Source: a virus. Taken from it: a stretch of DNA of 44,659 nucleotides. The notes beneath the pieces were generated by a model that saw only the letters and a list, made by a program, of their open reading frames with translations, was not told the DNA's origin and made no database searches. Below are positions 10,281-42,017 of the stretch, in pieces. The number at the start of each line of letters is the position of its first letter. Position 1 is the stretch's first letter. The stretch lies in the IMG/VR virus record IMGVR_UViG_3300034190_001954, positions 1 to 44,659 of that record. One strand, given 5' to 3'. Position numbers and translations under genes: made by a program.

Positions 10281-10281
10281 G

Positions 10282-17196: not shown

Positions 17197-18396
17197 TCAG
17201 AGCCCGGCCTGCTTGCGGTGGGCTTCGGACCAGTCAACGGTCAGGCGGGACAGGACGGTTTCCGGCTCGGTTCCGGTCGCTGCCAGCTTCGCTGCTGCAA
17301 CGATCGAACGAGTGCCGACGACGTAGGGGGCACGCTCTCGCTTGATCCACGACCGGAGGTCGGAGATGGCGCTCCGCAACCGGGAGCGAACTTCGGAGTC
17401 GCTGACGGTCTGCCAGATCGAGTCTTCGATCTGTTCGGAGTAGTCAACGTGGAACTTGGCACCGGTGAACCGGTCGAGGGTGGCAGCGTCGAGAGGACTT
17501 CGTCCGGTGTACTGCCGGTCGGCACCGTAGCCCCATGTGTTCGTGGCAGCGACGAAGACGAAGTCGTCGTGGCGCTTCAACGTCTCTTCGGAGACGGGGT
17601 TGTGGAGGAAGCCATTTGCAAGGGCCGAGTTGATGAGGGTCAGCAGATTGGGATCTGCTGCGTCGAACTCGTCAGCGAGGAAGACACCACCTCCGGTGAA
17701 CAGGTCAACAAACTGCGTGGACCGATAGGTCCACTCACCGCTGACCGACGGCATGATCCGACCGGTGAAGACGGACTCAGAGAGTCCCGCCGTGCAACTG
17801 ACGGATCCGAAGGGGAGGCTGAGGGACTCAGCAAGCTGACCGGCAAGGGTGGTCTTCCCGGTGCCAGCAGGGCCACAGAGCAGGAGGTTGGCAAAGCCAG
17901 CGGAGACGGCGCCGACAAGGTCGGGAAGGACTTCGTGGGTCACGTCGTCGATAGTGACGGAGTCACGATCGGGGAAGTTGAACTGCACGGGCTTGCAACC
18001 GGAGGTTGCACCGAGCTTGCTGATGGTGTCAGCCATGCTCTCTTCGAGAGCAGAGATGCGGTCACCGACGACGGAGTCGATGGTGGTGGTGATTGCGTCA
18101 GCAATCGGGCTGCCGGTGGTCACGGGCTTCTCCTTCGGAGCAGGGGGTGAAGGCACCTTTGGTGCCGGAGGGGTGGACGGCACCTTCGGTGCAGGGGGGG
18201 TGGTGCTGCCGAAGGCAGCGTTGCGGATGTCTGCAACCGTGCTTCCAGCGAGGGTGGCTTTGTCGAGGACAGCCTCACACTGTGCTGCACGGAGGCCATT
18301 GGCCTCCGCAGCGGACAAGGCTTCCCGGAGGATCGGGTCCTCCTTACGGAGACGGCGGATTCTGCTCCGCAGATTGGCGGTGCGATTGACTGGCAT
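17197..18396 (-). CDS. MoxR-type AAA+ ATPase (AAA_5)
   Basis: About 399 aa from ATG 18396, the start placed by the leader hairpin (18404-18416). The N-terminus (1-60) is helical. A Pro-Ala-Pro-Lys-Val repeat linker spans about residues 67-90. The AAA+ core has Walker A GPAGTGKT (175-182), Walker B GVFLADEFD (D242, E243), sensor 1 in ATNTWG (N286) and an arginine finger candidate near LDRF (R309). MoxR-type ATPases are chaperone-like and often work with VWA proteins to insert cofactors or assemble complexes. The next gene may encode that partner. Confidence 0.85.
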   Translation of the reverse strand: MPVNRTANLRSRIRRLRKEDPILREALSAAEANGLRAAQCEAVLDKATLAGSTVADIRNAAFGSTTPPAPKVPSTPPAPKVPSPPAPKEKPVTTGSPIADAITTTIDSVVGDRISALEESMADTISKLGATSGCKPVQFNFPDRDSVTIDDVTHEVLPDLVGAVSAGFANLLLCGPAGTGKTTLAGQLAESLSLPFGSVSCTAGLSESVFTGRIMPSVSGEWTYRSTQFVDLFTGGGVFLADEFDAADPNLLTLINSALANGFLHNPVSEETLKRHDDFVFVAATNTWGYGADRQYTGRSPLDAATLDRFTGAKFHVDYSEQIEDSIWQTVSDSEVRSRLRSAISDLRSWIKRERAPYVVGTRSIVAAAKLAATGTEPETVLSRLTVDWSEAHRKQAGL

Positions 18397-18403
18397 GGCT
18401 GGG

Positions 18404-18416
18404 GTCCTTTCAGGAC
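18404..18416 (-). promoter_or_regulatory. leader hairpin of the AAA+ gene
   Basis: GTCCTGAAAGGAC: perfect 5-bp stem with GAA loop, 7 nt before ATG 18396; the ribosome site AAAGGA is in the stem and loop. Confidence 0.65.
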
Positions 18417-18459
18417 AGGGGGTGATGGGTGGCGGTCTGGTTGCCGCCGATGCCACTAC

Positions 18460-18487
18460 AAAGTAGCAGGGCTGCAAACTCTGTCAA
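18460..18487 (-). promoter_or_regulatory. sigma-70-like promoter for the AAA+ gene
   Basis: TTGACA (18487-18482), 16-bp spacer, TACTTT (18465-18460). It sits between a UUCG terminator and the AAA+ leader. The -10 is weak. Confidence 0.5.
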
Positions 18488-21145: not shown

Positions 21146-21635
21146 GGAACTGCTGGAATACACGCACGCTTGGACATCGATGCGTTTGCGGTCTTTCCCC
21201 CTCTGGGATTTTGACGACATTCGGAATGAGGCTTATGTGACGGCGGTCACATTGCTGCACAGGTACGATCCTGACAAGGGGACGCTGCATCAGTTCCTGT
21301 CACAGAGGTTGTATGACTATGTGTCGAGGTCGTATCAAAAGCAGAACGGCATTGTTGTGACGCGAAAAAGGCTGCCTAATGGCCGTTGGGGGAAAAGGCA
21401 GTACAATAAACCCTTGAAATACATGCCGACGAACTGTCTACCGGCACCTCACCACTATGACCTCGAACCACATGACCAACCCGATCTCTCTGCTTTCCCC
21501 CGCAGCTTGCGCAAAACCGCGCAGATGCTGTCGATGGGCGTCAGCAAGAGCGATTGCGCGAAGAAAGATGGCCTCACCCCACAGGCCATCACATTCAGGA
21601 TGCGCAAGATGAGGGATTTGCTGGACGATTGTTGA
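21114..21635 (+). CDS. sigma-70-like transcription factor
   Basis: About 173 aa from ATG 21114 (MGKKPQRMTAEELLEYTH). Residues about 15-75 follow sigma region 2 (WDFDDIRNEAYVTAVTLLHRYDPDKGTLHQFLSQRLYDYVSR, resembling a 'D..D..QEA....L..Y....G.F..Y' plan). The C-terminus (SVSKSDCAKKDGLTPQAITFRM-like) resembles a region 4 HTH. A later ATG at 21135 lacks a spaced ribosome site. The gene is directly coupled to terminase (TGATG). It could direct host RNA polymerase to late promoters. Confidence 0.55.
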   Translation: MGKKPQRMTAEELLEYTHAWTSMRLRSFPLWDFDDIRNEAYVTAVTLLHRYDPDKGTLHQFLSQRLYDYVSRSYQKQNGIVVTRKRLPNGRWGKRQYNKPLKYMPTNCLPAPHHYDLEPHDQPDLSAFPRSLRKTAQMLSMGVSKSDCAKKDGLTPQAITFRMRKMRDLLDDC

Positions 21636-23362
21636 TGTCGTATTACGATAAGGTGCCGAAAAACCCACAAAAAAATTTGCGCTATCGCGCAAATGTGGTG
21701 CTGGCGGCGAAGCAGGACCGCAATTTGGCCGAGGAGCTATGGATTGCGTGTTCGCGTGACCTGTTGTTTTACATCAACACGTTCTGCTGGACCTACGATC
21801 CCCGTGTCGGATCTGGCGTAATCCCTTTCATCACCTATGGTTTTCAGGACGATGCCCTGCTTGAGATGGCTGACGCCATGGGCAAAAGGGATCTGGTCAT
21901 CAAGAAGAGCCGCGACATGGGAGCTTCTTGGATGCTCCTGACGGTTTTTGAGTGGAAGTGGCACTTCCTCCCGGGGCAGTCGTTTTTGTTGGTAAGTCGA
22001 AACGAGGATTACGTCGATAAGCCGGGTAATCCTAAGAGTCTGTTCTGGAAAATTGATTTCTTGCACAAGCACCAACCGGGTTGGCTGCTGCCCAAGATGA
22101 CCAGAACAAAGTTGAGACTAACCAATGAGTCAAACGGAAGCACTATCGACGGTGAATCTACCACCGGAGACGTTGCACGCGGGGATCGAAGAACTGCAAT
22201 TGGCCTTGATGAGTTTGCTGCTTTTGATGTGGATGCCGGATATCGTGCGCTGGCTTCTACGCGAGATGCGACAAATTCGCGCATCTTCAATTCAACGCCA
22301 GCAGGTTCGGGCAATGCGTTCTACGACATGGCGCACAAGCCGGACACCACGCAGATAACGCTGCATTGGACGCAGCACCCTGAGAAAAACAAAGACCTCT
22401 ACCATGATGAGCATGGCAAAATGCGCTCACCTTGGTATGACGCTGAATGCAAGCGGTGTGCGCACCCACAGGAGGTGGCGCAGGAGCTTGATATTGACTT
22501 CAGTGGGTCGGATTACCAGTTCTTCGATACGTCGATGCTGGACGATATCGAGCGAAACGTCTGCAAACCGCCCATGGCAGTGGGCGAACTGGACTATGAC
22601 GAGAACTCCTTGCAACCATTGGGGTTCTCAGCTACCTCTAAGGGCCGTTTGCAACTCTGGCGAATGCCTGATGACGAAGGAAACATGTCCAACGACCGCC
22701 GATTCGTGATCGGAGTCGATATTGCAACGGGTACGGGGTCCAGCAACAGCGTTATGAGCGTTGCAGACGCCAGAACAGGCGAGAAAGTCGCTGAATTCTG
22801 CTGCCCGAACACCAGACCTGAAGAACTTGGGCGGTATGCAGTTGCTTTAGGCCGATATTTCAAGGACGGCAGTGACCGGGACGCCTTTCTGATCTGGGAA
22901 GCGCCGGGTCCGGGCCGCAACTTCGGTGATGTAGTCCTCGAAAACGGCTATAGGAACATCTACTACCGTGAGCAAGAGAACTTGGTCACAAAGGTTGCGA
23001 CTAAGACACCGGGGTGGTGGCCGACCAAGGACTCAAAGCGCGGACTGTACGGGGATTACCGCAGGGCACTGCAATCAAAGTCCTTCATCAACTACAGCCT
23101 TCCGGCAATCAGGGAGGCCAGAGAGATCATTTTCTCCGTTAATGGCGGTGTCACCCACTCTAGGTCTGTACGGAACTTCGATCCCAGCGGAGCTAGGGAG
23201 AATCACGGCGACAGGCCAACCGCAGATGCCCTCTGTTGTCGTGGTATCAACCGAAGAAAAAACTCAACAACGCCGATAAGCACAGTAGAAGTGCCTCACG
23301 GCTCCATGTTGCACCGTAGGCAAATGGCTGAGAGCCGCAAACGCGAAAAGAAGTGGTGGTAA
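21635..23362 (+). CDS. terminase large subunit
   Basis: 575 aa from ATG 21635. ATPase: Walker A-like KSRDMGASW (91-99), Walker B TAIGLDEF (D192, E193) with the arginine-rich loop between. Nuclease: D362 in VIGVDIATGTG, E422 in LIWEAPGPGR, D531 in PTADALCC, the acidic triad of the RNase H-like packaging nuclease. It packages and cuts phage DNA at the portal. The start overlaps the sigma-like gene stop (TGATG), and the portal gene follows with 2 nt between. Confidence 0.95.
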   Translation: MSYYDKVPKNPQKNLRYRANVVLAAKQDRNLAEELWIACSRDLLFYINTFCWTYDPRVGSGVIPFITYGFQDDALLEMADAMGKRDLVIKKSRDMGASWMLLTVFEWKWHFLPGQSFLLVSRNEDYVDKPGNPKSLFWKIDFLHKHQPGWLLPKMTRTKLRLTNESNGSTIDGESTTGDVARGDRRTAIGLDEFAAFDVDAGYRALASTRDATNSRIFNSTPAGSGNAFYDMAHKPDTTQITLHWTQHPEKNKDLYHDEHGKMRSPWYDAECKRCAHPQEVAQELDIDFSGSDYQFFDTSMLDDIERNVCKPPMAVGELDYDENSLQPLGFSATSKGRLQLWRMPDDEGNMSNDRRFVIGVDIATGTGSSNSVMSVADARTGEKVAEFCCPNTRPEELGRYAVALGRYFKDGSDRDAFLIWEAPGPGRNFGDVVLENGYRNIYYREQENLVTKVATKTPGWWPTKDSKRGLYGDYRRALQSKSFINYSLPAIREAREIIFSVNGGVTHSRSVRNFDPSGARENHGDRPTADALCCRGINRRKNSTTPISTVEVPHGSMLHRRQMAESRKREKKWW

Positions 23363-26530: not shown

Positions 26531-27589
26531 ATGGCCTCTCTTCAGGCATCAGACATTGCTGATCTGATTACGACGACCCAGAAGGATCTGGGCCGTATGA
26601 AGTGGACCGACATCTCCTATTCGCTTCAGGAGCATGTCGCCCTCCCCATGATTCTCCAGAAGGAGAAGGTTTCCTACCAGTCCGGCAACGCCCTTCAGTG
26701 GAACGTGCAGACTGGCACCAGCGGCGCTGCCCGGGATACCGGTCTGTACGCGGTGGACAACGTCAACGTCTCGGATGTCATGCAGACTGCAACGGCACCG
26801 TGGCGTCACATGACCACCAACTACGCCATTGAGCGGCGCGAGATTGCGATGAACCGGACCCCGGCTCAGATCGTCGATCTCGTCAAGATTCGTCGCCACG
26901 ACGCGATGAGTTCGCTTGCTACTCACATGGAGCAGCGGTTCTGGGGTGCCCCCGGCGCTTCCGAAACCGATCGCCTCTATGGCATCCCGTACTGGATCAC
27001 CTACGGATCCGGCTCGGCCAACGGTGGTTTTGCTGGCGGCGACCCCGCCTACACTTCGGAAGGAACCGGCGCTGGTAACCTCGCGTCCGCTACCTACCCG
27101 AACTGGCAGAACTGGGTTTCGACCTACTCTTCCGTCACCTCGGACGACCTTGTCCGTCGTTGGCGCAAGGCTGCTACCTTCACCAACTTCAAGCCCCCGT
27201 CGCCCCACCCCGATTACATGGGCGGTGCGTCGAACTACGGCTTCTACACCAACTACAACGTCATTGGCCCCCTCGAAGAGCTTCTTGAAGCTCAGAACGA
27301 GAACCTTGGCAACGACGTTGCGTCCAAGGACGGCCAGCTTCTCTTCCGTCGGACCCCCGTCATGTGGGTTCCGCAGCTTGAGAACGCAACTGGCGATCCG
27401 GTCTACGGCATCAACTGGTCTTCGCTCCGGCCCGCGTTCCTCGCTGGCGAGTACCTCCGCGAAGAAGGCCCCTCGAAGGCTTCCAACCAGCACACCGTGT
27501 TCCTCAGCCACGTTGACCTGACCATGAACCTGATCTGTTACAACCGCCGTGCGAACTTCCTGCTCGCCACTGGTTCTGACATCTCCTAA
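26531..27589 (+). CDS. major capsid protein (HK97-type)
   Basis: A 352-aa protein from ATG 26531 (MASLQASDIADLITTTQ). Size, position after portal and scaffold, and the flow of residues 20-130 (WTDISYSLQEHVALPMI, NALQWNVQTGTSGAARDTGL, TTNYAIERREIAMNRTPAQ) match HK97-fold capsid proteins of short-tail marine phages. No protease domain is attached. It forms the icosahedral head shell. The ribosome site is weak, but the start aligns with the usual N-terminal helix. Confidence 0.87.
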   Translation: MASLQASDIADLITTTQKDLGRMKWTDISYSLQEHVALPMILQKEKVSYQSGNALQWNVQTGTSGAARDTGLYAVDNVNVSDVMQTATAPWRHMTTNYAIERREIAMNRTPAQIVDLVKIRRHDAMSSLATHMEQRFWGAPGASETDRLYGIPYWITYGSGSANGGFAGGDPAYTSEGTGAGNLASATYPNWQNWVSTYSSVTSDDLVRRWRKAATFTNFKPPSPHPDYMGGASNYGFYTNYNVIGPLEELLEAQNENLGNDVASKDGQLLFRRTPVMWVPQLENATGDPVYGINWSSLRPAFLAGEYLREEGPSKASNQHTVFLSHVDLTMNLICYNRRANFLLATGSDIS

Positions 27590-28450: not shown

Positions 28451-28678
28451 TTACATGTCTTGCATGTATTTGCCGACAGGACGGTGCGACGAATCCGTGG
28501 CACCGTGAGTCGGGTCAGTGGTTAGACGCGGCATGGGCCGAGGTGGTTCGAGAAACTTCTCCAGCATGATGTCAAACAAGTCAACAGCCTTGATACCGCG
28601 CTGTTTTGCAAGAAGTTTGACAGCAGAATAAGTCTCCTCGCGAACACGAACACTCACTGTCTCTGCCTTACGTCTCAT
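28451..28678 (-). CDS. ribbon-helix-helix protein, 75 aa
   Basis: A 75-aa protein starting MRRKAETVSVRVREETYSAV. A short strand (TVSVRV) followed by two helices (REETYSAVKLLAKQRG, AVDLFDIMLEKFLE) is the ribbon-helix-helix plan of small repressors. Its ATG overlaps the stop of the giant gene by 4 nt, so it may report the end of late-gene translation or regulate late transcription. Its operator is not identified. Confidence 0.75.
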   Translation of the reverse strand: MRRKAETVSVRVREETYSAVKLLAKQRGIKAVDLFDIMLEKFLEPPRPMPRLTTDPTHGATDSSHRPVGKYMQDM

Positions 28679-31600
28679 CGCGAACCACCATACTTCCTGT
28701 TCATGTATCTCTGAACGTCTGTCGAAGCGTTATCTACACGGCGCTGACCCACAGGCTTTCTTCGTGCTTCACGCTTGTTGTCGGCCCGTGCCTTCAAATC
28801 TCTCATGCTGATTCTAAGCTCAGGGTACATAGCATTGTGAAGCGCCACTATCTCTCTCGCAGTCTTCATGTCCCGAACAGCATAATACGTTGCAGCCTCG
28901 TCCTTGACACCGTCAATCAGCCGCATGACTGCCTGCTGGTGTGCCCACGCAGCACTGATTTCCGTTTCTTCCATAGTACGGAAACCACACATCTTTTTGA
29001 ACGTGAACTCAACAGTTGTGTTGAACTGGAACTCGCCCTGACTATTGAAGTAGGGGCGGCCAGAAGCCTCCATGTCCTGCGTTGCATCAAGGTAGTCACA
29101 CATGCTGTTCCATGCGTCAGGGATAAACCTGATCTGGTTTAGGGCTGGCGACGTATCCAGAATGCTCTTGAAGATGCGCTCAGGGGTGCTGACAGGAACG
29201 GCGGTCTTTTCCGTCAGATCGGTTGCAAGCCTGATGCCGCTGGTTCCTGCCGGACCTAAGAACTGGTTGCCCAAGATTTCAGCAAAGTTACGACCATAGG
29301 GCCTGTCAAGCAGTGCAACCGATCCACTGATGTCAATATCAAGCAGGCCAGCAAACATGCCATGTGCGACAGTGTTGGCTATAGCTCGCGAGCCAGTCAA
29401 TTCCTCCAGATACAGGCGGAATTCTTCAACGTCATCTCGTCCCGTAGGTGTTCCGTACCTCTGGCACGTTTCTGGGAATGCCGCGCAGAACCCACTCTTG
29501 CCGATCTCATAGAACGCAAGGGGCACGAGACCTCGCACGCCACCAAGAAGGAACTGCATTGCTGCAAACCGGGAAAATGCACCCATTCCTGTGGTGTTGT
29601 ACCCGGCCTCTTGGTCTACGCGACGGCCACGGTGGAGCATTGCATGTGCAAGCTGCACCTGATTTACCAAGAATCGCTTGAACTGGAAAGCGGTTGCAGC
29701 AATAGGGCTGCGCAGGAAGTAGGGCTGCGTTGTTCGCGTAAAGGCGTACTGTGTCATTGCAACGCCACGCACCATTGCAAACTCTGCGGCTTGGGTGTCA
29801 GACATCCCGAGCTTGCGCTTTGCATGGTCGAACATAGCCAAGAACGCAAAGTTTTGGTTTCGAACTTCAGAGCGCACTTCATACGGGACGTAATTCAGCA
29901 CGGCACGGCCAGCACGCTGTGCCGAGCGCAACGCCTTGACGCCCGAAACGCCTCCGCCCATTGGCGCGTCTCGGTACTTGCTACTGTCTGCACTCGGTCC
30001 AAACTGCTTGAGAATCCGACGGCCTTCCTTGCTGTTGTACAGAGTGATGGCACGAGCAAAGCCAACCTCACCAACAATAGGCCAAACGGTTTGCAGAGGC
30101 TGCAAGCTATTGACAACGTGCTGGCGAACGGTCTTCAGCTTGGTGAGATAGTGGAAGGAACGAACAAGGTGCAAGAAGCGCCTTGTTGGCCTGTGCCCCA
30201 TTTCCCAGTTCACGCGCAGTAGGCGCATGAGCGCATTGGGCTTATCCGTAGCGCTACCAAACATAGCTTCTAGGCTGCTATCCAGCCACTTCTCGACTGG
30301 GCCAGCGTGTTCGTCGCTTGCTGGGTAGATAATGTAGCTAGCCATATCCTCAAAATGCTTTGCCCAGTTGTGCAGCCCCTGCGCACGCATTTCGTCAACA
30401 CGCGGGAAAACGATCTTTCGAACATCTTGCGCCAGCATGTAACGGCGGTGCGCACGCCGCTGCATCTGCCAGACGCGCCAGAAGTCAGTCGAATACCCCT
30501 CTTTGCCAGTACGCTGAAGCATGGCGCCGTAGAAGGGGTTCTTGGACGATCTGGTGCCAACAATGCCCCGTGTTGCGTCGAAGATCTCTTGACTGGTCAG
30601 ATCTCCTGCCTGAGCAAGCTCGTCAAGGAGCATTGCGTGCTGCCTACTACTCAGGCGAACGGCCACATCACTGGGAACAGCGATACGCGGCAATGCAGCA
30701 ACAACAATCTTGCCGTCCTTGCGCAAGGCATCGTTGTTGTTCTTGTTGGCGTCCTCTATGTTCTTGACCATGCCAGCAGCGTCAGCCTGCGTTGCTGCAT
30801 GTCCGGTCACAACAAGCGCGTCGTACCTAGCCTGATATTCAGTTTTACCGCTGGCACGCGCTTTCAGGTACTTCTCTTCATCAATGTAGCCAACTTGATA
30901 TTCACCAAAGAATGCGTGGTGAATGTGTTCGTACTGATGACCCCAATCGTCAGTGTAAAGCAACTTTGCAAGTGCGCTGGCAGCGTCACCTGCTTCGTTG
31001 TCCGCAGTTTTGAGCAGTCTGTTGCCATCAGAATCGATGATGTAAGTGCGGATCTTGGTCGGATCACCACTGCGTGGCAACCGCTTCAGTTCCCAAGGCT
31101 TCTGTCCCTCTGGCAAAGCATCATTGGCTGCGTCAACGATGTCCTGAAGCGTTTTGCTAGCACCGCTGTAAACCCTATGAATAACGTCGCGCTTACTGCG
31201 CAAGATTTCTAGGCGCATGTCTTCGCCGCGAGCCTTAAAGTGCGCCAAAGCCCTACGAACCTTGGGAGGCAGATTCTTAGTCTCTTCGTTCGTGTCCACC
31301 TCGGAAGGGGCCACGCGGACCTTGTCCATAAGCTCGAAGAACTTTTCGCCCTTGTTCTTTCTGTATTCTCTAGGGAGACTGTCCCAGTATCTGCTGTCAG
31401 CGTCGTCCTGCTCAAGCTCGATGCGTCGATGCACAAGTTCCGCGTTAGTGAGCTTTGTTGCAGCGTCCTTCACAACACTCACAGTGCTGTTTGTGGCCGT
31501 GAACAGAATGTTGCCCACATATGAACGCCTTGCCTTAAGGTCGTCCTTTCTGGTTTCGACGAAGAACGTGTTTTCAAAGTCGCTTTGAATCTCGTCTTCG

Positions 31601-34600
31601 ACATCCAGACCAATAAGCCTGTTTGCAGATGCAAGGACGGAGTTCCCCAGCGGGGTGTCAGGGACTTCATCCGGGTACTGACCATCTTCCACGGTGGTGT
31701 CATTGCTTTCGCCATCACGGTTCAATGGCATGGGGCGGAAGTCGATTGTGTATGCGCCGCTTTCTGAGTCTTCAACATCCACCCGCGCAGCATCTGTGAG
31801 TTGGTAGATATCCAGAGGTGCGCCGGTGCCAGTCAAAAGACTGTCAAGAATGCCATGGTCAGTGGAACCGCCTTCGTCGCTAAGTGCAGTTGCATACTGC
31901 CGATCACCGCTGGTAAAGAACTTTCGGATAGCCCTTAGGCGGTTAGCTTGTGGCCCAACAAGGTTGCTGTGCCGGTACATCTTCTTTCCGGCAGCGTCCT
32001 TGTCTGGGCTTACCATTGCAACGCCAGAAACAATCTCGCCAGCTTCGCTTGCATTAATAGCGTCTGCGATTTGTGCGATGAGAATATCAGGCACGGGTGG
32101 GCGCGTAACCTTGGCGCTTTCTTCTTCCGCCTTGAAAGCTCTAGCCATTTGCTGTCGGCGCACCTGACCCTTTTCGTTTGTAGGCACACTCAGGATTGCT
32201 GCCCTATCACCACCAACTGTCAGGGGCGGAGCAGCAAACGAGTCCCTAACTTGATCGACAAGTTTGGGCATACCGGCTTTCTTGAACTTGGCAAGCTCTT
32301 TAAGCCCATCCTTAGTTACCTTGTCAGGGTCATCGGCAATGTCTTGTTCATCGAAGGCAGAGATGGCAATAAACCGAAGCGACTCTGTGCTTGGATCATA
32401 TTCGTATGCAACAGGGGTTGGCGGAAGGTTAACCATCCACAGTTCGTCAAGCTGCTGACCGTGTGCGAACGCAATGCGCGATATTCCCTTTTGCACCGCG
32501 ATCTTCATGATCTGCTTGGCAAGAAGACCGTACAGGCCGCGCTCATGGTGGTCCTTATCAAGCAGCGGCAGGGGCGGCATTCCCGGGGTATCCATAGCAG
32601 GAAGCACCTGAGTGCGCATTGCTCCGCCGACTTGATTAGCTGCACTATGGGCAGTGCTTGCCGGGTCACGGGCAATAGACTTGTCGTTCAGCCCAATTGC
32701 AATCGGAATCAGCGCGTCTCCGACTTCACTGACATCGATGCCTAGCTCGTCTGCAATGACTTCAGCTTGGGCCAAAGACATATTGTAGGCAACGCCAGTT
32801 TCCATATTCATTACGGAAACGACTTCGCCGTGCGTGACTATACGCATCTTCTTTCTGTCAACGTATGTGCTTTGGACGCCGTCTTCGCGGCGAGGGTCCA
32901 TGCCGTAAAGGCCACGGTCCTTCATGTAATCACTTTGCATTTCACCGACAAACAGCACATCATTGCCGTCAGCATCAGTTCTGATGTCATATCTGATGTG
33001 ACCAGCAAGGTTCGTTCGGATTTGCGTCGGAGTGAACTTAACATCAAGGTCAGACTCAACCAAAAGCGTGCCTCGATCGGCCCGCACAAGCCCAAAGTGC
33101 GAGGACTTGTAGGTAGTGGTTGTTCCAAGCCCATAGGTTGTAAGCATAACCTCGGTATACTCACGGGCTTTGGCCGACGCAGGAGACATCTTTTTCGTGG
33201 GTTTATCAAACCAATGATTTGCGTACTTGGGCTGCACCAAATGCTTGCCAAAGTCGGGGGACTCGGTGTCTGCCAGAGCGTTTATTAGCTCCCCAAAAAG
33301 ACCCGAAAAAGTTCCGCCAGTAAAGTACGCATTGGCACGGCGAAGATTATCGAGATCGATTTCGTGCGTAGACTTGTAACCGTCCTTTGCAAGAACCACT
33401 ATGCCTGTGTCAGAATCTGCGCTTCTGTCAACAAAGTCAGTGCTATTCTTGGGCGCAAACTGAGCAACCATGCCTGCGTTGGCTGCTGTGAAGCTAATCT
33501 CAATTTGATGTGGCCTATTAGTATTTGGGTCGATCAGGGTTTCGGTGCCAAATCGACTATCAAGATCTTCTACATTCAACTGGCCGCCAAACTCGTTTAG
33601 TAGCTCGCCATCTAGGTTGCCATGCAACACAAAGTCGTTGCCAAGCAAGCTAACTACATCAGGCATGTTAAGTGTCAAACGCTGATTGCGATTCCGCTCC
33701 ACCAGCTTGTCATTTATTTTCAGAGATGTGAAATCATCATACTCGCCACCCTTTGTGCGTGTACGGACATAGAAAGTGGTTTCGAGCGTGTAACGAAGCT
33801 CCGGCTTCCTGTTCTCACTAAACTCAAACACGATCTTGGGGTCCGTCATACGAGCCGTCATGCGAATCTCGTAATCAAGGTCCACGCCCATTTGTTCGGT
33901 CAAATGCTTAGTGAGGGCTTTTCCAGTATCAGTGCTGGCGATTTCTTCCTTTGTCAAAGTCATGGAATCAAAACGGCCAGCAACAAGCTGCGCAAAGTGA
34001 TCGTTAGTTCCATCGAATATGTCTGCTACAGGGGCCTTCACACGAACCCCCATTTCGAAGCGTTGATCTCCTGATTGCAGCGCCGATTGGGCAACTTCCG
34101 TAGCAGCGTGCTGCTTAATTACTGGAGCAGTTGCAAACAGGAAGGTGTCAACTTCCTCTTTAGTTGCACGCACAACCTTTGGTTGCTTGCCGTCATTTTC
34201 CGCAGTGCGCCGTGCAACAATCTCGTCAACAAAGTGGTTCCAGTTGCGCCAATCAGCCTCTTGCTTGAGAGAGGCAGTGAAGTTTCGCTCGACATCCTGA
34301 ATAGGCGTGCCCTTTTTGCCGCTGTACTCAGGCCTCCTGAGGAACCGCGCTAGCGCAGTTTGCATTGGCCTGACAGCGGGGGGCATCATTGTCGTTCCCG
34401 CAACAGTCTTGTCGGTATCGTCAAGATCCCTGTTCAGGGTGGGATTGCCATCGCGAGTGATCGTTCTTTCAGACTGCCGCAGATCAGCAAAAATCTGCTT
34501 GTAAATCCTTGCGGCCTCAGCTTTCTGTCGAACAGAAAAGTCAGATTCGCTTTGTGCTTCGAGGCGCTTAAGCAGTTCAAAGTTCTTCGGACCAAGCCTT

Positions 34601-37600
34601 TGCTCTACAGTCTGACGCAGCCGCAAAACCTCAAGCAGCTTTTGGACAAACCGAATAAACGGCCCGGGCGCCTCTCGAAGCAGTTCATCAATGACGGCAC
34701 TATCTGCGTGGATGAACTCGATAATTCTTTCAGCCAGCATCGCTGGCCCTTCAACCGCCAGCATCCAATCATCAGGCTTCGACGCAGTCTGCTCGCCGGT
34801 ACTGTCGCTTTGCAACTGACGTGCTTCGTAAGCAGCGGACCATGAGCGAAGCGCCTTTTCCATCGCCTCAGGTGCAATGCGCTGAAGCGCCTTGAACAGA
34901 CGGGCTACATCACCCGGCTTGGCTTCGCCCTGCCAAGTGTGAACAAGCTCATGCAGCAGGACGGCCTCCATTGGGACCGTTCCGCTGTCTGCGCGAAGGG
35001 CAATAGCGTTCGGGTTGCGGTACTGGCCCGCAGTCTTGCCTTCTCCGCCCTCGTAAAACAGAACCGATACACCAAGGCCCTTGGCAAATTCGGCTGCTTC
35101 GAGTTCACGTTCGTTTTTGGGAGATGTCCCGATTTTAACATCAATGCCTTCAGTTTCGATCAAGCCCAATGCGGCGAACACCAAGCCCAGTTCTTCGTTG
35201 CTAAGGGAGTCAATGTCCCCGCCAAGACGCGCAGGAGCAGCCCCCTTGGCCCGGTCCTTCGCAGATCGGTCTTGAGGGAAGAGCAGGCTGGCTTGCGGAA
35301 CAACTTCAATCAACTTGTCAAGAACACGCTGCCCGTGGTTAACTTCCTCAGGCGCTTCCGCCGCGTCTTCACGAACAGAAGAAGCCGTGTTTGCAGAACG
35401 CTGGCGCTGCTGCTCACTCTTTTCTGAAGCGCGTGTTGCATTTGCAAAAGCGCGACGGATGTTTTGCGTCAGGTTCTTTCTTTGAAGCTCTGGGTCCGGC
35501 CCTGCCTCTTCCGCAGCAGGGCCTGCTGCCGCCTCGACAACTTCACGCTCTAGCTCTTCGGCTTCTGCGTTGCTAATTTCAGTTTCTTCAACAGGTACGA
35601 CTTCTTCCTGTCGCGGCTCCTGCACCTCTGGCTCAGGCTCTTCTGTCACAGGCTGTTCGGTAATGGTGGGTTCGGTTCCAATCTCTACCAGCGTGCCTGC
35701 GGGATCTTGCGGTGCCTGTTCTGTTTCCACACGCGAGGCTTCTGCATCTGCCTCTTGAGTTGTGTCGATTTCAGGCAGCGTTGCGACATTCGATTGCACT
35801 GCGGCCCAGAAGCGAGCGCGAGCCTGTCCACTATTGGACTTGTGCTTGCGATTGAAAAGAGTCTCCATTTCCGACCGAGAAGGAGGGCTAGGTGCTTCTG
35901 CAATGCTTCGTGCCAGTTCGGGGTTATCGAGTACCCATTCACGCAATTCCATGTTTGCCAGTGGGTCACCACCAGCAAACGCAACGTCTGCCTCAAGAGT
36001 GCCGCGTGCGTCCTCACGCAACTGCCGCTTGTCAGTAACCTCAGCCTTCTCGCCCAGCTTTTGACGAACAGCGGGGGGCCGCTCGGGTTCTGTCTGTTGC
36101 AAAGCCCGAACGTCGGCTTCTTCCATCTGCAAGCCATGTCTGCGGGTCAGCGCAATGCGTGCTTCAAGGGGAGTAACCGGGCGGTTGATGTAACCAACAC
36201 CATTTGTGCCAGTCGCTGTAATCCTCAGATCTTTAACGTCTTCGCCAATCGCAACCTCAAAGCCACTTGCGGCAACTTGGGCCAGCTCTTGATCTGAGAA
36301 CTGATCGAATGAGTCCTCTACGTTCTCAACGAACTCAATCGACTTTTGGTATTCCTCCGCTCGCTTCTTCTTTTCCTTGAGGCTCAACTCGCCAAGCTGG
36401 GCCAAAACTTCTTGCTTGCTCGGCTTCTTGTCGGTGATTCCAGCGATAACGCCAGCAGGCGCATCCATGACGGCGCCGACACCAGCAATGAGAGCGATCT
36501 GATTCCAAGTTTCAGGGTCACCTTCAATCAGCCGGTCAAACATGGACTCTTCATCGCGGCTGTAGGAAATGAGCGCGTCAGCGACTACTTCCTCAATGAC
36601 CTCTTGCGTTGCGCCGGTAGCACCTGCCACCAAGCCCTTGCGTGCAATGCGAGCAGCCGCATAGGTCAAATGCTTCCGGAATCCCGGAATCTTCTCAAGC
36701 ACGAACTTGCCAGCGATGTACTCAGTTGCAGCCGTGACGGTGTATGCAGTGGCTGCCTCCATGTGGGCCTTAGCCAGAGCCTGTTCGACTGAGTAGCCAT
36801 TTGCTACCGCATCTTCGTAGCCGTCGATGAACTGGCGACCACCAACCTCTGCTGCGCTTGTGATTGCAAAAGTCGTTGCACGAAGCCGAGCCTGCCGCTT
36901 AATCGCCTTCTTGACCATGGCCTGAGACAGAGTCTGGCCACCAGACGTAACAGGGGCACTAGATCCGCCCGTTACAATCGCCAGCCCAAGCTCGAAGAGG
37001 GTGGCGGGTGCTTCCCGTGCCGCCTCCGTCATAAGCTGGAACAGGTAGGCCCGCTCATTCAGCGGCGTCTCATCAGCAGTATCGACATAGCCAAGGAACT
37101 TCTGGCTCTGGTTGACCTGCATTGCTGCGTCGATGTTGTACGTCGGGTCCAAGAACTGGGCACCATCAATGCCCACGGCATCAAGTCCGGAGATAGCGGA
37201 CTGCGTGACAAACGCAATGCTGCCACGGGTCGCAGAAACCATTTCCCGTGAGCCGTCCATAACGGCGTCGTAGAGGCTTTCTCCCAGACCGGGGTGCCTG
37301 ACTGACAAAAACCCTGAAAGGTCGTGTAGGCCCTTTCTAGGGCTTCTCATGGAAAGCAGGGACTTGCGGGCGCTCTCCATGGCCTGCTGTGCGTATGCGT
37401 TGGCCTTGTCGCGCTGCACACTGACCGGCTCATTGCCGTACAGGATGTCAACCAGACCAGTATAGAACTCACCATATGCACCACTGATGTTAGTAATAAA
37501 TCCACCAGCATCAGCATTAAGCAGGGATGAGAACGCATCCTTCATGGCGTAGTGCGTGCGGCCCAGAACTTCTTCCACACCCGGTGTGGTAAAGAACTCT

Positions 37601-38442
37601 CCGTCAACACCACGCTCAACCTGCCTGCGGCCAAACTGGGTTTCGACGCCAAGCTGCCGACGCTCTTCCATCCGCTCCAGATCTGCGAGCGTTGGCGTCC
37701 TGCCCTCTGGGGCAACCATCATGCCGCGCTGCGCGGTTGCAATCCTTGCAAACGGGTCTGCCGGGGCCTCAAGGGCAGGTTCACGATCCTGACCACGTTT
37801 TCTGGCTTTTGTGAATCTTTCTTCAAATGCCTTCTCAAACTCCTTCGGGTCCACCCCCTCAGGAACTGGCGGCAGCACACGACCCGTAGGGCCAGCACCC
37901 ATTTCGGCTCGCTGCACTTCAAGCATCCCAGCCGTTCGCTCAGGCAAATCCATGGGACTCTGGTTGTATTCGACCGGAGTGAGGTTGGCCTTGTCTCCAC
38001 GCTCTCTCTGGTTGCGAATCACATCCGCTGCCGTCATTGGCTTGGGCTGTGCGGCGGGCGGTGGCTCCTCGTCTTCGACAGGGATCTCCAGCCCTTGCTG
38101 CTGCATCACCGTGTTTCTATAGGCACGCACCTTGTCGTAGAAGTTGGGTTCACCGCGCTTTATATGCGGGAACCGCGTCTCTACCATGACGAGTGCTTTT
38201 TCAAGGGCCTGCTTTTGTGCCCGCTGGTATTCGAGGTTCGCCTTCTGCCTTGATCGAATCTCGTCCTGTGTCTCTTGCGGACTAGGCGGCTTCGGCTCTT
38301 CAATGCCAACGCGAACAGGCTGCTCCAGTGGCTCTTCCGGAGTTCCGGAAACTACTGGCGCAGGCTCTGGCGCGGGCTGAGTTGTGGGGGTGGCGGGAAA
38401 CTTCTTCGCAAGAAGACCTTCAAACAGTTCTTTTTCGTTCAT
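28675..38442 (-). CDS. giant internal virion / large polyvalent protein, 3255 aa
   Basis: A single uninterrupted gene of 9.77 kb, about a fifth of the window. N-terminal region (1-110) is Pro-rich and charged with a KALVMVETRFP segment. A zincin-type HELVH motif (1164-1168) in VLLHELVHTWQGE could bind zinc. GEMQSD (1833-1838) is a motif of large polyvalent proteins, in which EiQSD-type domains recur (family knowledge). Residues about 2900-2990 (RFAAMQFLLGGVRGLVPLAFYEI) form a hydrophobic region resembling LPD38-type C-terminal domains. Such proteins are packaged inside the head and enter the host with DNA to counter defences. No full catalytic site is confirmed. Confidence 0.75.
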   Translation of the reverse strand: MNEKELFEGLLAKKFPATPTTQPAPEPAPVVSGTPEEPLEQPVRVGIEEPKPPSPQETQDEIRSRQKANLEYQRAQKQALEKALVMVETRFPHIKRGEPNFYDKVRAYRNTVMQQQGLEIPVEDEEPPPAAQPKPMTAADVIRNQRERGDKANLTPVEYNQSPMDLPERTAGMLEVQRAEMGAGPTGRVLPPVPEGVDPKEFEKAFEERFTKARKRGQDREPALEAPADPFARIATAQRGMMVAPEGRTPTLADLERMEERRQLGVETQFGRRQVERGVDGEFFTTPGVEEVLGRTHYAMKDAFSSLLNADAGGFITNISGAYGEFYTGLVDILYGNEPVSVQRDKANAYAQQAMESARKSLLSMRSPRKGLHDLSGFLSVRHPGLGESLYDAVMDGSREMVSATRGSIAFVTQSAISGLDAVGIDGAQFLDPTYNIDAAMQVNQSQKFLGYVDTADETPLNERAYLFQLMTEAAREAPATLFELGLAIVTGGSSAPVTSGGQTLSQAMVKKAIKRQARLRATTFAITSAAEVGGRQFIDGYEDAVANGYSVEQALAKAHMEAATAYTVTAATEYIAGKFVLEKIPGFRKHLTYAAARIARKGLVAGATGATQEVIEEVVADALISYSRDEESMFDRLIEGDPETWNQIALIAGVGAVMDAPAGVIAGITDKKPSKQEVLAQLGELSLKEKKKRAEEYQKSIEFVENVEDSFDQFSDQELAQVAASGFEVAIGEDVKDLRITATGTNGVGYINRPVTPLEARIALTRRHGLQMEEADVRALQQTEPERPPAVRQKLGEKAEVTDKRQLREDARGTLEADVAFAGGDPLANMELREWVLDNPELARSIAEAPSPPSRSEMETLFNRKHKSNSGQARARFWAAVQSNVATLPEIDTTQEADAEASRVETEQAPQDPAGTLVEIGTEPTITEQPVTEEPEPEVQEPRQEEVVPVEETEISNAEAEELEREVVEAAAGPAAEEAGPDPELQRKNLTQNIRRAFANATRASEKSEQQRQRSANTASSVREDAAEAPEEVNHGQRVLDKLIEVVPQASLLFPQDRSAKDRAKGAAPARLGGDIDSLSNEELGLVFAALGLIETEGIDVKIGTSPKNERELEAAEFAKGLGVSVLFYEGGEGKTAGQYRNPNAIALRADSGTVPMEAVLLHELVHTWQGEAKPGDVARLFKALQRIAPEAMEKALRSWSAAYEARQLQSDSTGEQTASKPDDWMLAVEGPAMLAERIIEFIHADSAVIDELLREAPGPFIRFVQKLLEVLRLRQTVEQRLGPKNFELLKRLEAQSESDFSVRQKAEAARIYKQIFADLRQSERTITRDGNPTLNRDLDDTDKTVAGTTMMPPAVRPMQTALARFLRRPEYSGKKGTPIQDVERNFTASLKQEADWRNWNHFVDEIVARRTAENDGKQPKVVRATKEEVDTFLFATAPVIKQHAATEVAQSALQSGDQRFEMGVRVKAPVADIFDGTNDHFAQLVAGRFDSMTLTKEEIASTDTGKALTKHLTEQMGVDLDYEIRMTARMTDPKIVFEFSENRKPELRYTLETTFYVRTRTKGGEYDDFTSLKINDKLVERNRNQRLTLNMPDVVSLLGNDFVLHGNLDGELLNEFGGQLNVEDLDSRFGTETLIDPNTNRPHQIEISFTAANAGMVAQFAPKNSTDFVDRSADSDTGIVVLAKDGYKSTHEIDLDNLRRANAYFTGGTFSGLFGELINALADTESPDFGKHLVQPKYANHWFDKPTKKMSPASAKAREYTEVMLTTYGLGTTTTYKSSHFGLVRADRGTLLVESDLDVKFTPTQIRTNLAGHIRYDIRTDADGNDVLFVGEMQSDYMKDRGLYGMDPRREDGVQSTYVDRKKMRIVTHGEVVSVMNMETGVAYNMSLAQAEVIADELGIDVSEVGDALIPIAIGLNDKSIARDPASTAHSAANQVGGAMRTQVLPAMDTPGMPPLPLLDKDHHERGLYGLLAKQIMKIAVQKGISRIAFAHGQQLDELWMVNLPPTPVAYEYDPSTESLRFIAISAFDEQDIADDPDKVTKDGLKELAKFKKAGMPKLVDQVRDSFAAPPLTVGGDRAAILSVPTNEKGQVRRQQMARAFKAEEESAKVTRPPVPDILIAQIADAINASEAGEIVSGVAMVSPDKDAAGKKMYRHSNLVGPQANRLRAIRKFFTSGDRQYATALSDEGGSTDHGILDSLLTGTGAPLDIYQLTDAARVDVEDSESGAYTIDFRPMPLNRDGESNDTTVEDGQYPDEVPDTPLGNSVLASANRLIGLDVEDEIQSDFENTFFVETRKDDLKARRSYVGNILFTATNSTVSVVKDAATKLTNAELVHRRIELEQDDADSRYWDSLPREYRKNKGEKFFELMDKVRVAPSEVDTNEETKNLPPKVRRALAHFKARGEDMRLEILRSKRDVIHRVYSGASKTLQDIVDAANDALPEGQKPWELKRLPRSGDPTKIRTYIIDSDGNRLLKTADNEAGDAASALAKLLYTDDWGHQYEHIHHAFFGEYQVGYIDEEKYLKARASGKTEYQARYDALVVTGHAATQADAAGMVKNIEDANKNNNDALRKDGKIVVAALPRIAVPSDVAVRLSSRQHAMLLDELAQAGDLTSQEIFDATRGIVGTRSSKNPFYGAMLQRTGKEGYSTDFWRVWQMQRRAHRRYMLAQDVRKIVFPRVDEMRAQGLHNWAKHFEDMASYIIYPASDEHAGPVEKWLDSSLEAMFGSATDKPNALMRLLRVNWEMGHRPTRRFLHLVRSFHYLTKLKTVRQHVVNSLQPLQTVWPIVGEVGFARAITLYNSKEGRRILKQFGPSADSSKYRDAPMGGGVSGVKALRSAQRAGRAVLNYVPYEVRSEVRNQNFAFLAMFDHAKRKLGMSDTQAAEFAMVRGVAMTQYAFTRTTQPYFLRSPIAATAFQFKRFLVNQVQLAHAMLHRGRRVDQEAGYNTTGMGAFSRFAAMQFLLGGVRGLVPLAFYEIGKSGFCAAFPETCQRYGTPTGRDDVEEFRLYLEELTGSRAIANTVAHGMFAGLLDIDISGSVALLDRPYGRNFAEILGNQFLGPAGTSGIRLATDLTEKTAVPVSTPERIFKSILDTSPALNQIRFIPDAWNSMCDYLDATQDMEASGRPYFNSQGEFQFNTTVEFTFKKMCGFRTMEETEISAAWAHQQAVMRLIDGVKDEAATYYAVRDMKTAREIVALHNAMYPELRISMRDLKARADNKREARRKPVGQRRVDNASTDVQRYMNRKYGGSR

Positions 38443-38466: not shown

Positions 38467-40551
38467 TTAGTTTCTGGGGCCAGAATACCCCATGTATCGT
38501 GTATATGCGTCGAAGACTTGCTCGAAATCTTCTGGGTCATCAAAGAAATCAGCGGGATAAAGCTGAATGAGTTGGCCCATGATCGTGCTTGCTTCTTCAG
38601 GCGTGTAGCTGCCACGGGCACTACCCCTTGCTGCAACACTTGCAAGAACCCTGCCTTCAGAGGGGCTGTAGTACGCGAAGTTTGGATAGAGGTCGGGCGA
38701 TATTTGCATCAGTTCATCTGAGCTACGAATGACCGGCAAAGATCTACCGTAGAAAGCACTGCCGGGTTGCGTGATAGTGTAAGCCTCGTACTCAACCTTG
38801 TTGCCTTCGTCGGTTGTGTAAACAACAACATCACGCCCTTCAGCGATAGCAGGCTCAAAGGCAGCTATGGAGTTTTCGTATGGAGCCGCACGCTGTTGAT
38901 CCAGAATGTTTCGTCTGCGCAGATACTCTTCAGATTCTCGCTGTACGCGCAGAGCAAGTTCGAGCTTACGTTCCCGCTCCTGCCTTCCAGCTTCAGAATT
39001 AGGGTCAGTTGGCACCCTTAGAAGTCTTTCAAGGTCTTGTTCAGAGAGATCTAGTGCAAAATCTCCAAGAACCTCAAGTGTGCGCCCAGCCAACACATCT
39101 TCGGCAGTAAGAGTCAAATCCACATCAGGATATTCTGCGGCCAACCCTTGCATTGCAGCGAGCTGTTCGGGAATCGTTTGGTTAACGAACGTGTCGTATT
39201 CGCCAACTTGCTTTGCGTGGATTCTTGTGTACTCGTCCTGCTCAAACTTCATCCGGGCCTTTTCGTCTTCCGCCTGCTTCTTGAGCGCAGCTTCATTGGG
39301 CGCATCCGGTCCCGAAGTTGCAACAGCCAAAGTCGCAGAACCGGGCGGGAAATACGCAGTGCCTTTATGAAGCAACTTTGCTTGGTCTGCCGTAGCTGGG
39401 GCGGGGTACAGAGTATTGCCTAGTGCGCGAGTGGGGATCTTGGGGCCAGCCGGACCCGCCCCTTCAATACGCGCATACGCAGTGCCGTCACTATTCGCCC
39501 CGTACACAAGGCCGCCAACCGGGTTGCTGAAAGTGTACTGCTGTGGCGATTCAACAACTGGGGCAATATCTGTAGGCTCTTCGCTTACAACGCCAGCAAT
39601 CGCATCTGCTGCCGCGTTCCTAGTTTCGATTTCTGCTTTTAGAATGTCTTGGAACTGTTCTGGCGTAACAGGGAATCCTAAGTCTTCCTGCTTTTGAGCA
39701 GTTGCTTGGGCTGCATTGAAGGCACTTTCAAAGTCACGGATCTGTTCCGCAGCGGCTTTCCTAGAAGCAGCCGCTTCCGCCTCTTCCGCAATCATCCCCT
39801 GTCTTTCAAGCTGGGCGCCAATATCGCCAAGGCTAGGAATGCCAGCAGCCAGCGTTGCACGACGCTGCTGAACGGTTTCGATAGCTTGTCGGCGCTCGCT
39901 TTCTGTCAGCGAAGCATCCTGCTCAATAGCCCTTCGGTCTGATTCAAGCTGGTTGTAAAGCTGGGTAAACTGGCGAGCTTCAGGAGTGTCTAGCTGGCTG
40001 ATAGCGCTTGCTGTATCGCCAAGCACATTAATAGCTTGCTGGCTACCCGGGTCTTCAGGCGTGCCAAGAATGGATTGCCATGTTGCTTCTGAAAACCCTC
40101 TCCTGACATCTGGCGAGATCAAGCGTGTGCGGGCACCGCCAACCATCGCTTCTTGCGTTGCAAACTGGGCCTCTTGGCCGCGCACAGTGACAAAGATGTC
40201 GTCGGCAGGACTGGGGGGCTGGGCCGGGGCAGCGGGCGCACGCCTCTGCCTGCGCTCCTCGCGCCTTTGCTCAAAGCCTTCCCTGCGTTCCTGAATGCGC
40301 TCTTGGATCTGCTCCTGCTTTTCAAAGCCCTTTTCTCGCAACTGCTCACGGCGCTCTTCGATGAGAGCAGCGTCATCCTGCGGCTGCCTAAGCTTGTCAC
40401 CAAGTTCTTCAGACCGTTCGCGTGACTCTGCAATACGCCTCTGGTATTCCTCCGCACGCAACCTCTGGTCTTCTTGGAAAGAAGTTTCCTTGCGGATCGG
40501 CTCTTCGTCTTCGGGCACAAGGCCGGTCATGGTCGGTGGAAAAATGCTCAT
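38467..40551 (-). CDS. coiled-coil internal virion protein, 694 aa
   Basis: A 694-aa protein starting MSIFPPTMTGLVPEDEEP. Residues 25-110 are a long Glu/Arg/Gln coiled coil (ERREQLREKGFEKQEQIQER), followed by an Ala/Pro spacer and a second helical region (about 180-260). A central Gly/Pro/Ala segment precedes another long helical section (about 400-560). Its gene lies 24 nt upstream of the giant gene. It may package with it or act as a tail-tube or injection component. No family is recognised. Confidence 0.6.
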   Translation of the reverse strand: MSIFPPTMTGLVPEDEEPIRKETSFQEDQRLRAEEYQRRIAESRERSEELGDKLRQPQDDAALIEERREQLREKGFEKQEQIQERIQERREGFEQRREERRQRRAPAAPAQPPSPADDIFVTVRGQEAQFATQEAMVGGARTRLISPDVRRGFSEATWQSILGTPEDPGSQQAINVLGDTASAISQLDTPEARQFTQLYNQLESDRRAIEQDASLTESERRQAIETVQQRRATLAAGIPSLGDIGAQLERQGMIAEEAEAAASRKAAAEQIRDFESAFNAAQATAQKQEDLGFPVTPEQFQDILKAEIETRNAAADAIAGVVSEEPTDIAPVVESPQQYTFSNPVGGLVYGANSDGTAYARIEGAGPAGPKIPTRALGNTLYPAPATADQAKLLHKGTAYFPPGSATLAVATSGPDAPNEAALKKQAEDEKARMKFEQDEYTRIHAKQVGEYDTFVNQTIPEQLAAMQGLAAEYPDVDLTLTAEDVLAGRTLEVLGDFALDLSEQDLERLLRVPTDPNSEAGRQERERKLELALRVQRESEEYLRRRNILDQQRAAPYENSIAAFEPAIAEGRDVVVYTTDEGNKVEYEAYTITQPGSAFYGRSLPVIRSSDELMQISPDLYPNFAYYSPSEGRVLASVAARGSARGSYTPEEASTIMGQLIQLYPADFFDDPEDFEQVFDAYTRYMGYSGPRN

Positions 40552-40562: not shown

Positions 40563-42017
40563 TTAAGCGATGTAGGTTCCGTCAGCGACGAGAGTCGAAC
40601 CAGCAACCGGCAGCATCATGTTGCCGCCCATGACGTACTGGTTGAAGAACGTCTGCATTTCGCTGCCGTAGTTGTTGGTGTAGGCAAGCGTGAATCCATC
40701 GCGGAGACGGAAGTCATTCTCGCCGCGAGTGATTACGATTGAAGGCCCGCCGTCGTAAAGCTGGGTGGGTTCAGCCAGAATCAACTCGCCAACAATGAGC
40801 GAGCGGTCAGCTTGCAAGGCCGTGCTGAAATCGATTGCAAACCTGAGGTCTTGCGGAACGACCTTTTCAGACAGATCGATAACGCCAGTCAGGTTGGTCC
40901 AGCTTGTAGTGATGTTGGTGCTAGAGAAGTCCAGCGACAACGAAGAAGCAGACAGCCGGGAGGAAGTCCCATTCCAGAGAGCAAGCCGGATCACGCCACT
41001 GGTGATGGTGGTTGTGACAGCCCGCAGGTTGATGGAATACACATACGAGCGGCCAGAGTAAACCCTAGAGGTAGTTCCGTCCGTGTGGCCCATCCTCTGA
41101 AAAGCCGTGTGCTTGTATGAGTTGTTACCATTGAACTGGAGGTTGTAGGTGCCACGGCTGCCGAACGTCGTCGTGGTGCGCTGCGCGTTGTCGGACAACG
41201 CCCCGCCTTCGCCACCGTTCGTGGTAGCAAGGTCGGTCCCAGACCCACCCAGAGTGAACTGGTTGAGGGTGGTGGCATCAGACCAGCGGTCAAACCCACT
41301 GTTGCGCAGAAGGTTCGTGCCGGTTGTAGCCGCGTTGCGCCTGCCACTAACAGCCGAGTAGTTGTCTGAGGCAGTGACTGGAATGTTGGTGTTTGCAGCG
41401 CTGCCAGACGGCCAGTTGGGGTCGTAGTTGCTGTACTTGCGGCTGCCAGTGATCGTAAAAAGTTCTCGCCCCGGCTCAGGGCCGTAAGAAGCATCCTTGG
41501 TGCATTCGATACGCATGGTTTCTGCGCGAATGTTCTGGCGCTTCTTGCTAGGCCCACCAGCCATCCACTCAGGTGCATGGTTGGAAATAAGCACAGTCCC
41601 GACGTTGGAAGTGTTAGTCAGTCCGTCAAGGCCAGCGGAGAGCGTTCCAGCACTAATGGTGTTCTCTTCAACGTACACACCTTGGCGCTTCATGTCCTTG
41701 ACCAAAAGCGTCATTGCTTCTGACAGGGTGCTGGGGCTGAGTCCAAGCCCGTCGCGGATCGTTTCCATGACAATCCGATGGGCAGTCCGGCTAATCTCGC
41801 GGTCGAGCGTAGCAAGACCCTGAGAGAACGCATCTCGGCCTTCAACGAGCGATGCAATGTGGTCCGAGTCTGCGGTGGTAAACTCATCATCAACGTCGTC
41901 AATCTCAGTGACAACGTCGTCTCTAAAAGCGTTATGCACCTTTGCAAGCTGGAACAGCCTGCCAATGCGCATGAAGAAGGCACCTGATCCGGACGATCCA
42001 GTAAACGTGATTGCCAT
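40563..42017 (-). CDS. tail spike / fibre-like protein with carbohydrate-binding domain
   Basis: A 484-aa protein. The N-terminal 110 residues are helical (MRIGRLFQLAKVHNAFRDDV). Residues about 225-400 start LLRNSGFDRWSD and continue with alternating strands (YNLQFNGNNSYKHTAFQ, YSINLRAVTTTITSG), a galactose-binding/CBM-like jelly roll of the type used by phage receptor-binding proteins. The C-terminus (FTLAYTNNYGSEMQTFF) may oligomerise. Position next to the 106-aa gene in the tail cluster supports receptor binding, but the domain is recognised by pattern only. Confidence 0.65.
   Translation of the reverse strand: MAITFTGSSGSGAFFMRIGRLFQLAKVHNAFRDDVVTEIDDVDDEFTTADSDHIASLVEGRDAFSQGLATLDREISRTAHRIVMETIRDGLGLSPSTLSEAMTLLVKDMKRQGVYVEENTISAGTLSAGLDGLTNTSNVGTVLISNHAPEWMAGGPSKKRQNIRAETMRIECTKDASYGPEPGRELFTITGSRKYSNYDPNWPSGSAANTNIPVTASDNYSAVSGRRNAATTGTNLLRNSGFDRWSDATTLNQFTLGGSGTDLATTNGGEGGALSDNAQRTTTTFGSRGTYNLQFNGNNSYKHTAFQRMGHTDGTTSRVYSGRSYVYSINLRAVTTTITSGVIRLALWNGTSSRLSASSLSLDFSSTNITTSWTNLTGVIDLSEKVVPQDLRFAIDFSTALQADRSLIVGELILAEPTQLYDGGPSIVITRGENDFRLRDGFTLAYTNNYGSEMQTFFNQYVMGGNMMLPVAGSTLVADGTYIA

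Follow-up and report, generated by a model that had tools for sequence, protein, structure and literature searches.

A giant gene of a divergent phage lineage that encodes a putative polyvalent protein with a zincin-like domain and a conserved helical C-terminal region

The closest described systems are the tail-700/PLxRFG giants, the virion RNA polymerase gp50 of phage N4 (Schitoviridae), the Bcep22-type DarB-like giants such as gp69 of phage JC1, and gp16 of phage T7. The tail-700/PLxRFG giants, for example the 495 kDa protein of the Lastavirus phage ZX1, have a C-terminal match in common with the protein studied here, and the ZX1 gene is reported to occupy 19% of its genome (PMC9505181), compared with about a fifth in our case. 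N4 gp50, with about 3500 residues, is ejected and is described as having an HExxH-bearing C1 part and a helical C2 part (PMC12633501); its C-terminal 1400 residues are needed for encapsidation according to Iyer et al. (PMC5512222). Our protein resembles it in size and in the order of an HExxH domain and, later, a large helical tail, and the smaller virion-protein genes upstream of the N4 giant, in the same direction, have candidate counterparts here. However, no RNA polymerase family in Pfam matched our protein, and N4 does not match tail-700. JC1 gp69 (4515 aa) is the product of a giant multi-domain gene that ends the virion-gene block and takes 22.1% of the genome. It was detected in virions by 51 unique peptides, the highest number among the tabulated virion proteins that were compared (PMC9144972). 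The LPD38, LPD3, lytic-transglycosylase-like and helicase/methylase parts described for gp69 were not found in our protein by Pfam. T7 gp16 is a mostly helical core protein and the largest in the run of internal virion protein genes 14-15-16; our protein is 2.5 times larger and matches its fold only at Z 5.

The window, which is the whole stretch of viral DNA that was analysed, is 44,659 bases long. The original prediction placed a 3255-residue ORF at 28675-38442, and a single open frame of that length indeed spans these positions. It lies on the minus strand, which the prediction had left unstated, and the plus-strand frame across the same positions contains many stops. With 9768 of 44,659 bases (21.9% of the record), one gene takes up about a fifth of the genome, as had been claimed. 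The genes that matter here are:

21554..23362, plus strand: large subunit of the terminase (family match)
26531..27589, plus strand: major head protein (phrog_9953)
28675..38442, minus strand: giant gene, 3255 aa, stop codon included (ORF listing and translation)
38467..40551, minus strand: 694-aa gene upstream of the giant gene, read in the same direction (possibly a second ejection protein, going by position only)
40563..42017, minus strand: 484-aa gene upstream of the giant gene (homologs lie upstream of giant genes in L082, L087, L091 and L093)

The head protein, further genes and the large terminase are convergent to the giant gene. Only 24 bases separate the giant gene from the upstream 694-aa ORF, whose product had no match in phages at E ≤ 0.01 and is a candidate second ejection protein, as judged from its position only.

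This gene order is conserved. A search with the head protein as query found 46 loci, the related loci coming from IMG/VR records, and tblastn detected part of the giant gene in 13 of these 46 capsid-gene relatives, fragments included. When the longer records (17 of the 46 head-protein loci and L048) were searched whole, 16 of 18 matched the giant gene; the other two, of 28.1 and 21.1 kb, are possibly fragmentary. In most of the long loci that were compared, the terminase is followed in order by the genes for proteins of 605, 125 and 331 aa, the head protein and then the convergent giant gene; in the records of L026 and L027 the giant gene is found elsewhere in the record. Seven related ORFs are complete (L075, L071, L014, L016, L072, L073 and L036; 2649 to 4370 aa), and that of L084 measures 3975 codons from stop to stop. 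In L103, L106 and L048 the tail is encoded in a shorter ORF (1747 codons in L103; at least 1012 in L106 and at least 970 in L048, where the locus end was reached) that follows separate upstream ORFs, so the giant gene may be split into consecutive ORFs in these loci. Throughout the family the tail is conserved and the middles of the relatives are unlike each other, a pattern of module exchange. The largest member, the 4370-aa giant of L072 (914-14023, minus strand), carries the Strawberry-notch helicase domains AAA_34 and Helicase_C_4 (E 3.6e-21 and 6e-15). PHROGs searches with 20 family members returned only families without a named function.

The gene families of the window and the comparison of loci both place the giant gene in the vicinity of virion genes. 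This bears on an explanation in which the giant is not a virion protein and functions in the infected cell alone, with a part in replication or anti-restriction, for instance. The helicase of the L072 relative would suit such a role, and the virion location in this lineage is something that we infer. Yet the neighbours of the giant gene include those for the terminase and the head protein and, upstream, those for the 694- and 484-aa products, phage polyvalent genes are typically found among virion genes according to Iyer et al. (PMC5512222), and the JC1 counterpart is present in virions (PMC9144972). A purely intracellular role is therefore improbable. It is likely instead that the giant gene encodes a virion protein of the polyvalent, ejection type and that the tailed phage to which it belongs is probably short-tailed.

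The lineage is highly divergent, and the giant protein is genuine, a divergent representative of a kind already described. Split into two overlapping pieces that cover the whole protein, it gave no tblastn match at E ≤ 0.01 among 50,697 phage records, which sets it apart from the described tail-700/PLxRFG giants. A pattern search of IMG/VR for the whole protein found none, and neither PHROGs (E ≤ 0.1) nor PADLOC returned a match. No defence or anti-defence family was matched in Pfam, PHROGs or PADLOC. A scan of genome contigs with one peptide pattern from the tail alignment found no host or prophage relatives.

Several parts of the giant protein could be delimited:

34663..35190, minus strand: zincin-like domain, about residues 1085-1260 (alignments, model and N4 profile match)
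34939..34953, minus strand: HELVH, residues 1164-1168 (invariant H, E and H in alignment A3)
31756..33240, minus strand: QSD region, residues 1735-2229 (resemblance to GNATs in a model of low confidence, no more than a lead)
32929..32946, minus strand: GEMQSD, residues 1833-1838 (motif position in the translation)
28678..31575, minus strand: conserved helical C-terminal region, residues 2290-3255 (alignment A2, model and BFVD matches)
29311..29877, minus strand: tail-700/PLxRFG match, residues 2856-3044 (NF032893 search)
29656..29850, minus strand: residues 2865-2887 and 2904-2929, tail segments that align with the profiles of N4 gp50 and T7 gp16 (profile comparisons)

HELVH and GEMQSD are thus found in the translation where the original prediction had put them. 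HELVH is the sole HExxH in the protein; about 0.07 would be expected from the composition, and an HExxH is aligned with it in seven relatives (A3) and in L084 (A7), so the motif is more than a chance occurrence. Invariant in A3, which holds the window protein and the seven relatives, are H125, E126, H129, G100, P137, L143 and P152. With L084 added in A7, the columns that show no variation are the H, E and H, two prolines and a Glu further downstream. The HETWH of L032 was left out of A3, as its surroundings are unlike the others, and the fold alignment A7 was made without L071 and L032. Structure prediction of the region around residue 1164 gives a helix and three strands, then the helix with the HExxH and, further on, another helix that carries the downstream Glu. 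This secondary structure matches the layout described for polyvalent zincins by Iyer et al. (PMC5512222), in which the HExxH helix comes after a three-strand sheet and the Glu sits on the following helix, and the same arrangement was found here by alignment and in a model of low to moderate confidence (mean pLDDT 42 over 1200 residues, about 55-70 in the zincin region).

Profile comparison points the same way. Alignment A3 matched a profile of the N4 vRNAP zincin, built from N4 gp50 and four relatives, with a score of 38.1 (probability 48%; E 1.9e-4, calculated for a single comparison) and with the HExxH motifs in register, whereas the best of 20 column shuffles scored 15.5. Phage vB_Pae1396P-5 was left out of this profile since the part of its protein that was fetched lacks the domain. 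The only Pfam hint in the giant protein is DUF6782, a putative metallopeptidase family, at E 0.013. When the PDB was searched by sequence, the zincin profile gave chance rows only, mostly myoglobin, at E ≥ 0.12, and a Foldseek search of the PDB with the model of residues 1070-2269 gave nothing at E ≤ 0.001. Five viral Foldseek rows for the same model at E ≤ 0.001 had TM values of about 0.1 and were not used. The alignments and the model thus indicate that HELVH lies in a zincin-like, putative metallopeptidase domain, in agreement with the zincin-type motif of the original prediction.

The motif is not found throughout the family. An HExxH is present in 8 of the 19 related ORFs, fragments included, and in 6 of the 9 complete members (the window protein and L084 counted); it is absent from L016, L036 and L072, so the giant-gene family can do without the zincin. 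These absences would agree with a protein that is packaged and ejected but has a structural function only, the HExxH domain being structural itself or a degenerate leftover. The precedent of N4 gp50, which according to Iyer et al. (PMC5512222) is packaged unprocessed although its HExxH-bearing region is required for encapsidation, would agree with it as well. What speaks against such a role, however, is the conservation of the H, E, H, the downstream Glu and the flanking G, P and L in zincin-region sequences that are only about 20-25% identical to that of the window, and we regard it as unlikely, though less so than a purely intracellular role. In addition to the aligned zincin motif, the L073 protein (residue 2138) and the L074 protein (residue 965) have a second HExxH (HEALH, HELAH).

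The role of the QSD region is less clear. GEMQSD is not a general motif of the family, its nearest forms being GEVQSD in L005 and GELQFD in L075. In a comparison of the model with VIA-align, acetyltransferases were among the rows over model positions 666-1160, which correspond to residues 1735-2229. These rows include isocitrate lyase 2 (C-terminal domain), KacT, GmvT and EsaI, which we take to be GNAT-like. The top rows have Z values from 8.9 to 5.3, the best covering 120 residues at 2.9 A, where best Z values of 7-8 are typical without a clear match. In the model GEMQSD is part of a strand, and the next helix predicted with confidence spans residues 1970-1984; much of the model is below pLDDT 50. 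The CoA pyrophosphate-binding loop of GNATs is RxxGxG-like; the window protein has a similar ERGLYG before the helix, which is not kept in L075 or L005. Judged from the model, the resemblance to GNAT acetyltransferases is a lead, to be held loosely. GNATs do occur in polyvalent proteins as described by Iyer et al. (PMC5512222).

The C-terminal residues 2290-3255 are the conserved part of the giant protein, with relatives 21-53% identical to the window in A2 (A8 is without L072 and L076, both of which are in A2; L077, L048 and L106 are in neither). This region matched the NCBIfam model NF032893, tail-700/PLxRFG, at E 2.4e-11 (42.8 bits, model positions 310-488). By hmmscan the model matched 9 of 20 family members, and in a search per genome 16 of 19 IMG/VR records, that of the window included. 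No match was obtained for JC1, for N4, T7, 45A6, BS-TP4 or D171, or for any of seven LPD38-type tails. The curated cut-off of 100 bits was reached by none of the 20 records, so that, in distinction to the tail-700/PLxRFG giants themselves, the giant protein appears from its sequence to be a remote relative and is not a member by NCBI's rule. The model of the tail is mostly helical (pLDDT 63.8). In BFVD it resembles giant phage proteins (40 rows at E ≤ 0.001), several of them named for a large polyvalent protein domain. Against the PDB its two best rows were core proteins, that of phage E1004 (Z 5.3 over 211 residues) and that of T7 (Z 5.0 over 209 residues), and the seventh was the PhiM1 ejectosome (Z 4.0, 223 residues), all below the level that the tool calls meaningful; by sequence, the tail profile found chance rows only in the PDB.

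With a zincin, a tail common to very large phage proteins, virion genes as neighbours and interchangeable middles, the assignment to the polyvalent class made by the original prediction holds up, and injection and an action against host defences would be presumed by analogy. The combination that was to refute the prediction, lack of a zincin fold together with lack of resemblance to polyvalent proteins, was not observed. If the protein works like N4 gp50 and the Bcep22-type DarB-like giants, the conserved helical C-terminus of the tail-700/PLxRFG kind would mediate loading into the head and exit from it. The variable internal modules, here the zincin-like metallopeptidase at about 1085-1260 and the QSD region at 1735-2229, would be the cargo, which is swapped among relatives, as for the Strawberry-notch helicase of L072. 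Following adsorption, the giant protein would exit from the virion together with the DNA or before it. The zincin would then most likely cut either the polypeptide itself, releasing modules, or a host protein; cleavage of its own chain and of a host target are both options discussed by Iyer et al. (PMC5512222).

The original prediction had further described the C-terminal region as LPD38-like, which was not borne out. Pfam PF18857 (LPD38) matched neither the window protein (E ≤ 1) nor any of 20 family members (E ≤ 0.05) nor any of 11 records (E ≤ 10), whereas all six fetched C-termini of LPD38-type phages, used as a positive control, matched at E 2e-29 or better. When full-length profiles were compared directly, the tail scored 20.2 against the LPD38-type tail, no better than chance (21.3 for the best of 20 shuffles). 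What speaks for an LPD38-type polyvalent protein is a weak motif in the same register in both tails, linked via N4 gp50: the comparisons of the tail with N4 C2, of the LPD38-type tail with N4 C2 and of the tail with the LPD38-type tail all chose the same register. In chosen segments the tail and the LPD38-type tail reached 19.4, barely above the 17.9 of shuffles. An LPD38-type protein is thus highly improbable and largely refuted at the family level, and the relation to tail-700/PLxRFG is preferred.

The same comparisons raise the question whether these tails are related at a deeper level. With full-length profiles the tail scored 29.2 against N4 C2 (best of 20 shuffles 25.2) and 31.1 against T7 gp16 (best of 20 shuffles 22.7; by hhalign 31.1, best of 30 shuffles 23.0), and the LPD38-type tail scored 42.0 against N4 C2 (best of 20 shuffles 27.6). 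The LPD38-type tail against T7 (19.0, best of 20 shuffles 27.2) and T7 against N4 C2 (21.6, best of 20 shuffles 24.5) remained at chance level. The tail reached 30.4 against a joint segment of N4 and LPD38-type sequences, with 17.9 for the best of 30 shuffles. Between chosen segments the probabilities were 91.5% for N4 with LPD38-type and, for the window family, 42% with N4, 42% with T7 and 4.5% with LPD38-type; as the choice of segments was guided by the initial comparisons, the E-values are post hoc and belong to single comparisons. The N4/T7 and LPD38-type/T7 segments were no better than shuffles. The match with N4 covers about 23 columns and that with T7 gp16 is one 26-column segment. The latter aligns tail-model residues 615-640 with about gp16 1091-1116, while the structural alignment pairs tail-model residues 21-551 with gp16 515-1291; the two registers disagree and therefore cannot both be right. 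The C-termini of JC1 (L079) and N4 (L117) are closer to each other than to the window family (E 8.7e-7, one post hoc comparison).

This evidence, post hoc and partly inconsistent as it is, suggests a tentative reading, which we find possible but somewhat doubtful: PLxRFG-type giants, N4-type vRNAPs, LPD38/DarB-like giants and T7 gp16 may have a C-terminal ejection terminus of common descent. Its proposed signature would consist of two segments, the first around Y-x-x-h...G-x-S-x3-A and the second aromatic and F-x-[FN]-like. One loading-and-exit end might then have been combined repeatedly with different cargo (RNA polymerase, helicase-methylase, transglycosylase or zincin), the window representing a lineage in which it bears a zincin together with a GNAT-like module. 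In the literature on PLxRFG and LPD38, as far as it was surveyed, we found no published link that joins the PLxRFG-type, N4, LPD38-type and T7 tails. Of the present proposals, the shared terminus most deserves a test. Infection begins with the action of giant ejected proteins, and their fast divergence makes classification hard; if tail segments are indeed common to N4, DarB-like, PLxRFG- and T7-type proteins, one signature could find ejected cargo proteins across short-tailed phages. A family with swappable middles on a conserved tail also allows a direct test of the head-loading part against the delivered part.

The window yielded neither tRNAs nor Rfam families nor direct repeats of at least 30 bases, and scans for promoters and terminators gave fewer sites than in shuffles, so no claim on transcription is made. 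A 426-aa ORF at 17197-18477 (minus strand) has matches to several ATPase families and to phrog_249, which bears the name porphyrin biosynthesis. A run of ORFs at 7557-12837, also on the minus strand, matches primase, helicase, RecT-like annealing protein and exonuclease families.
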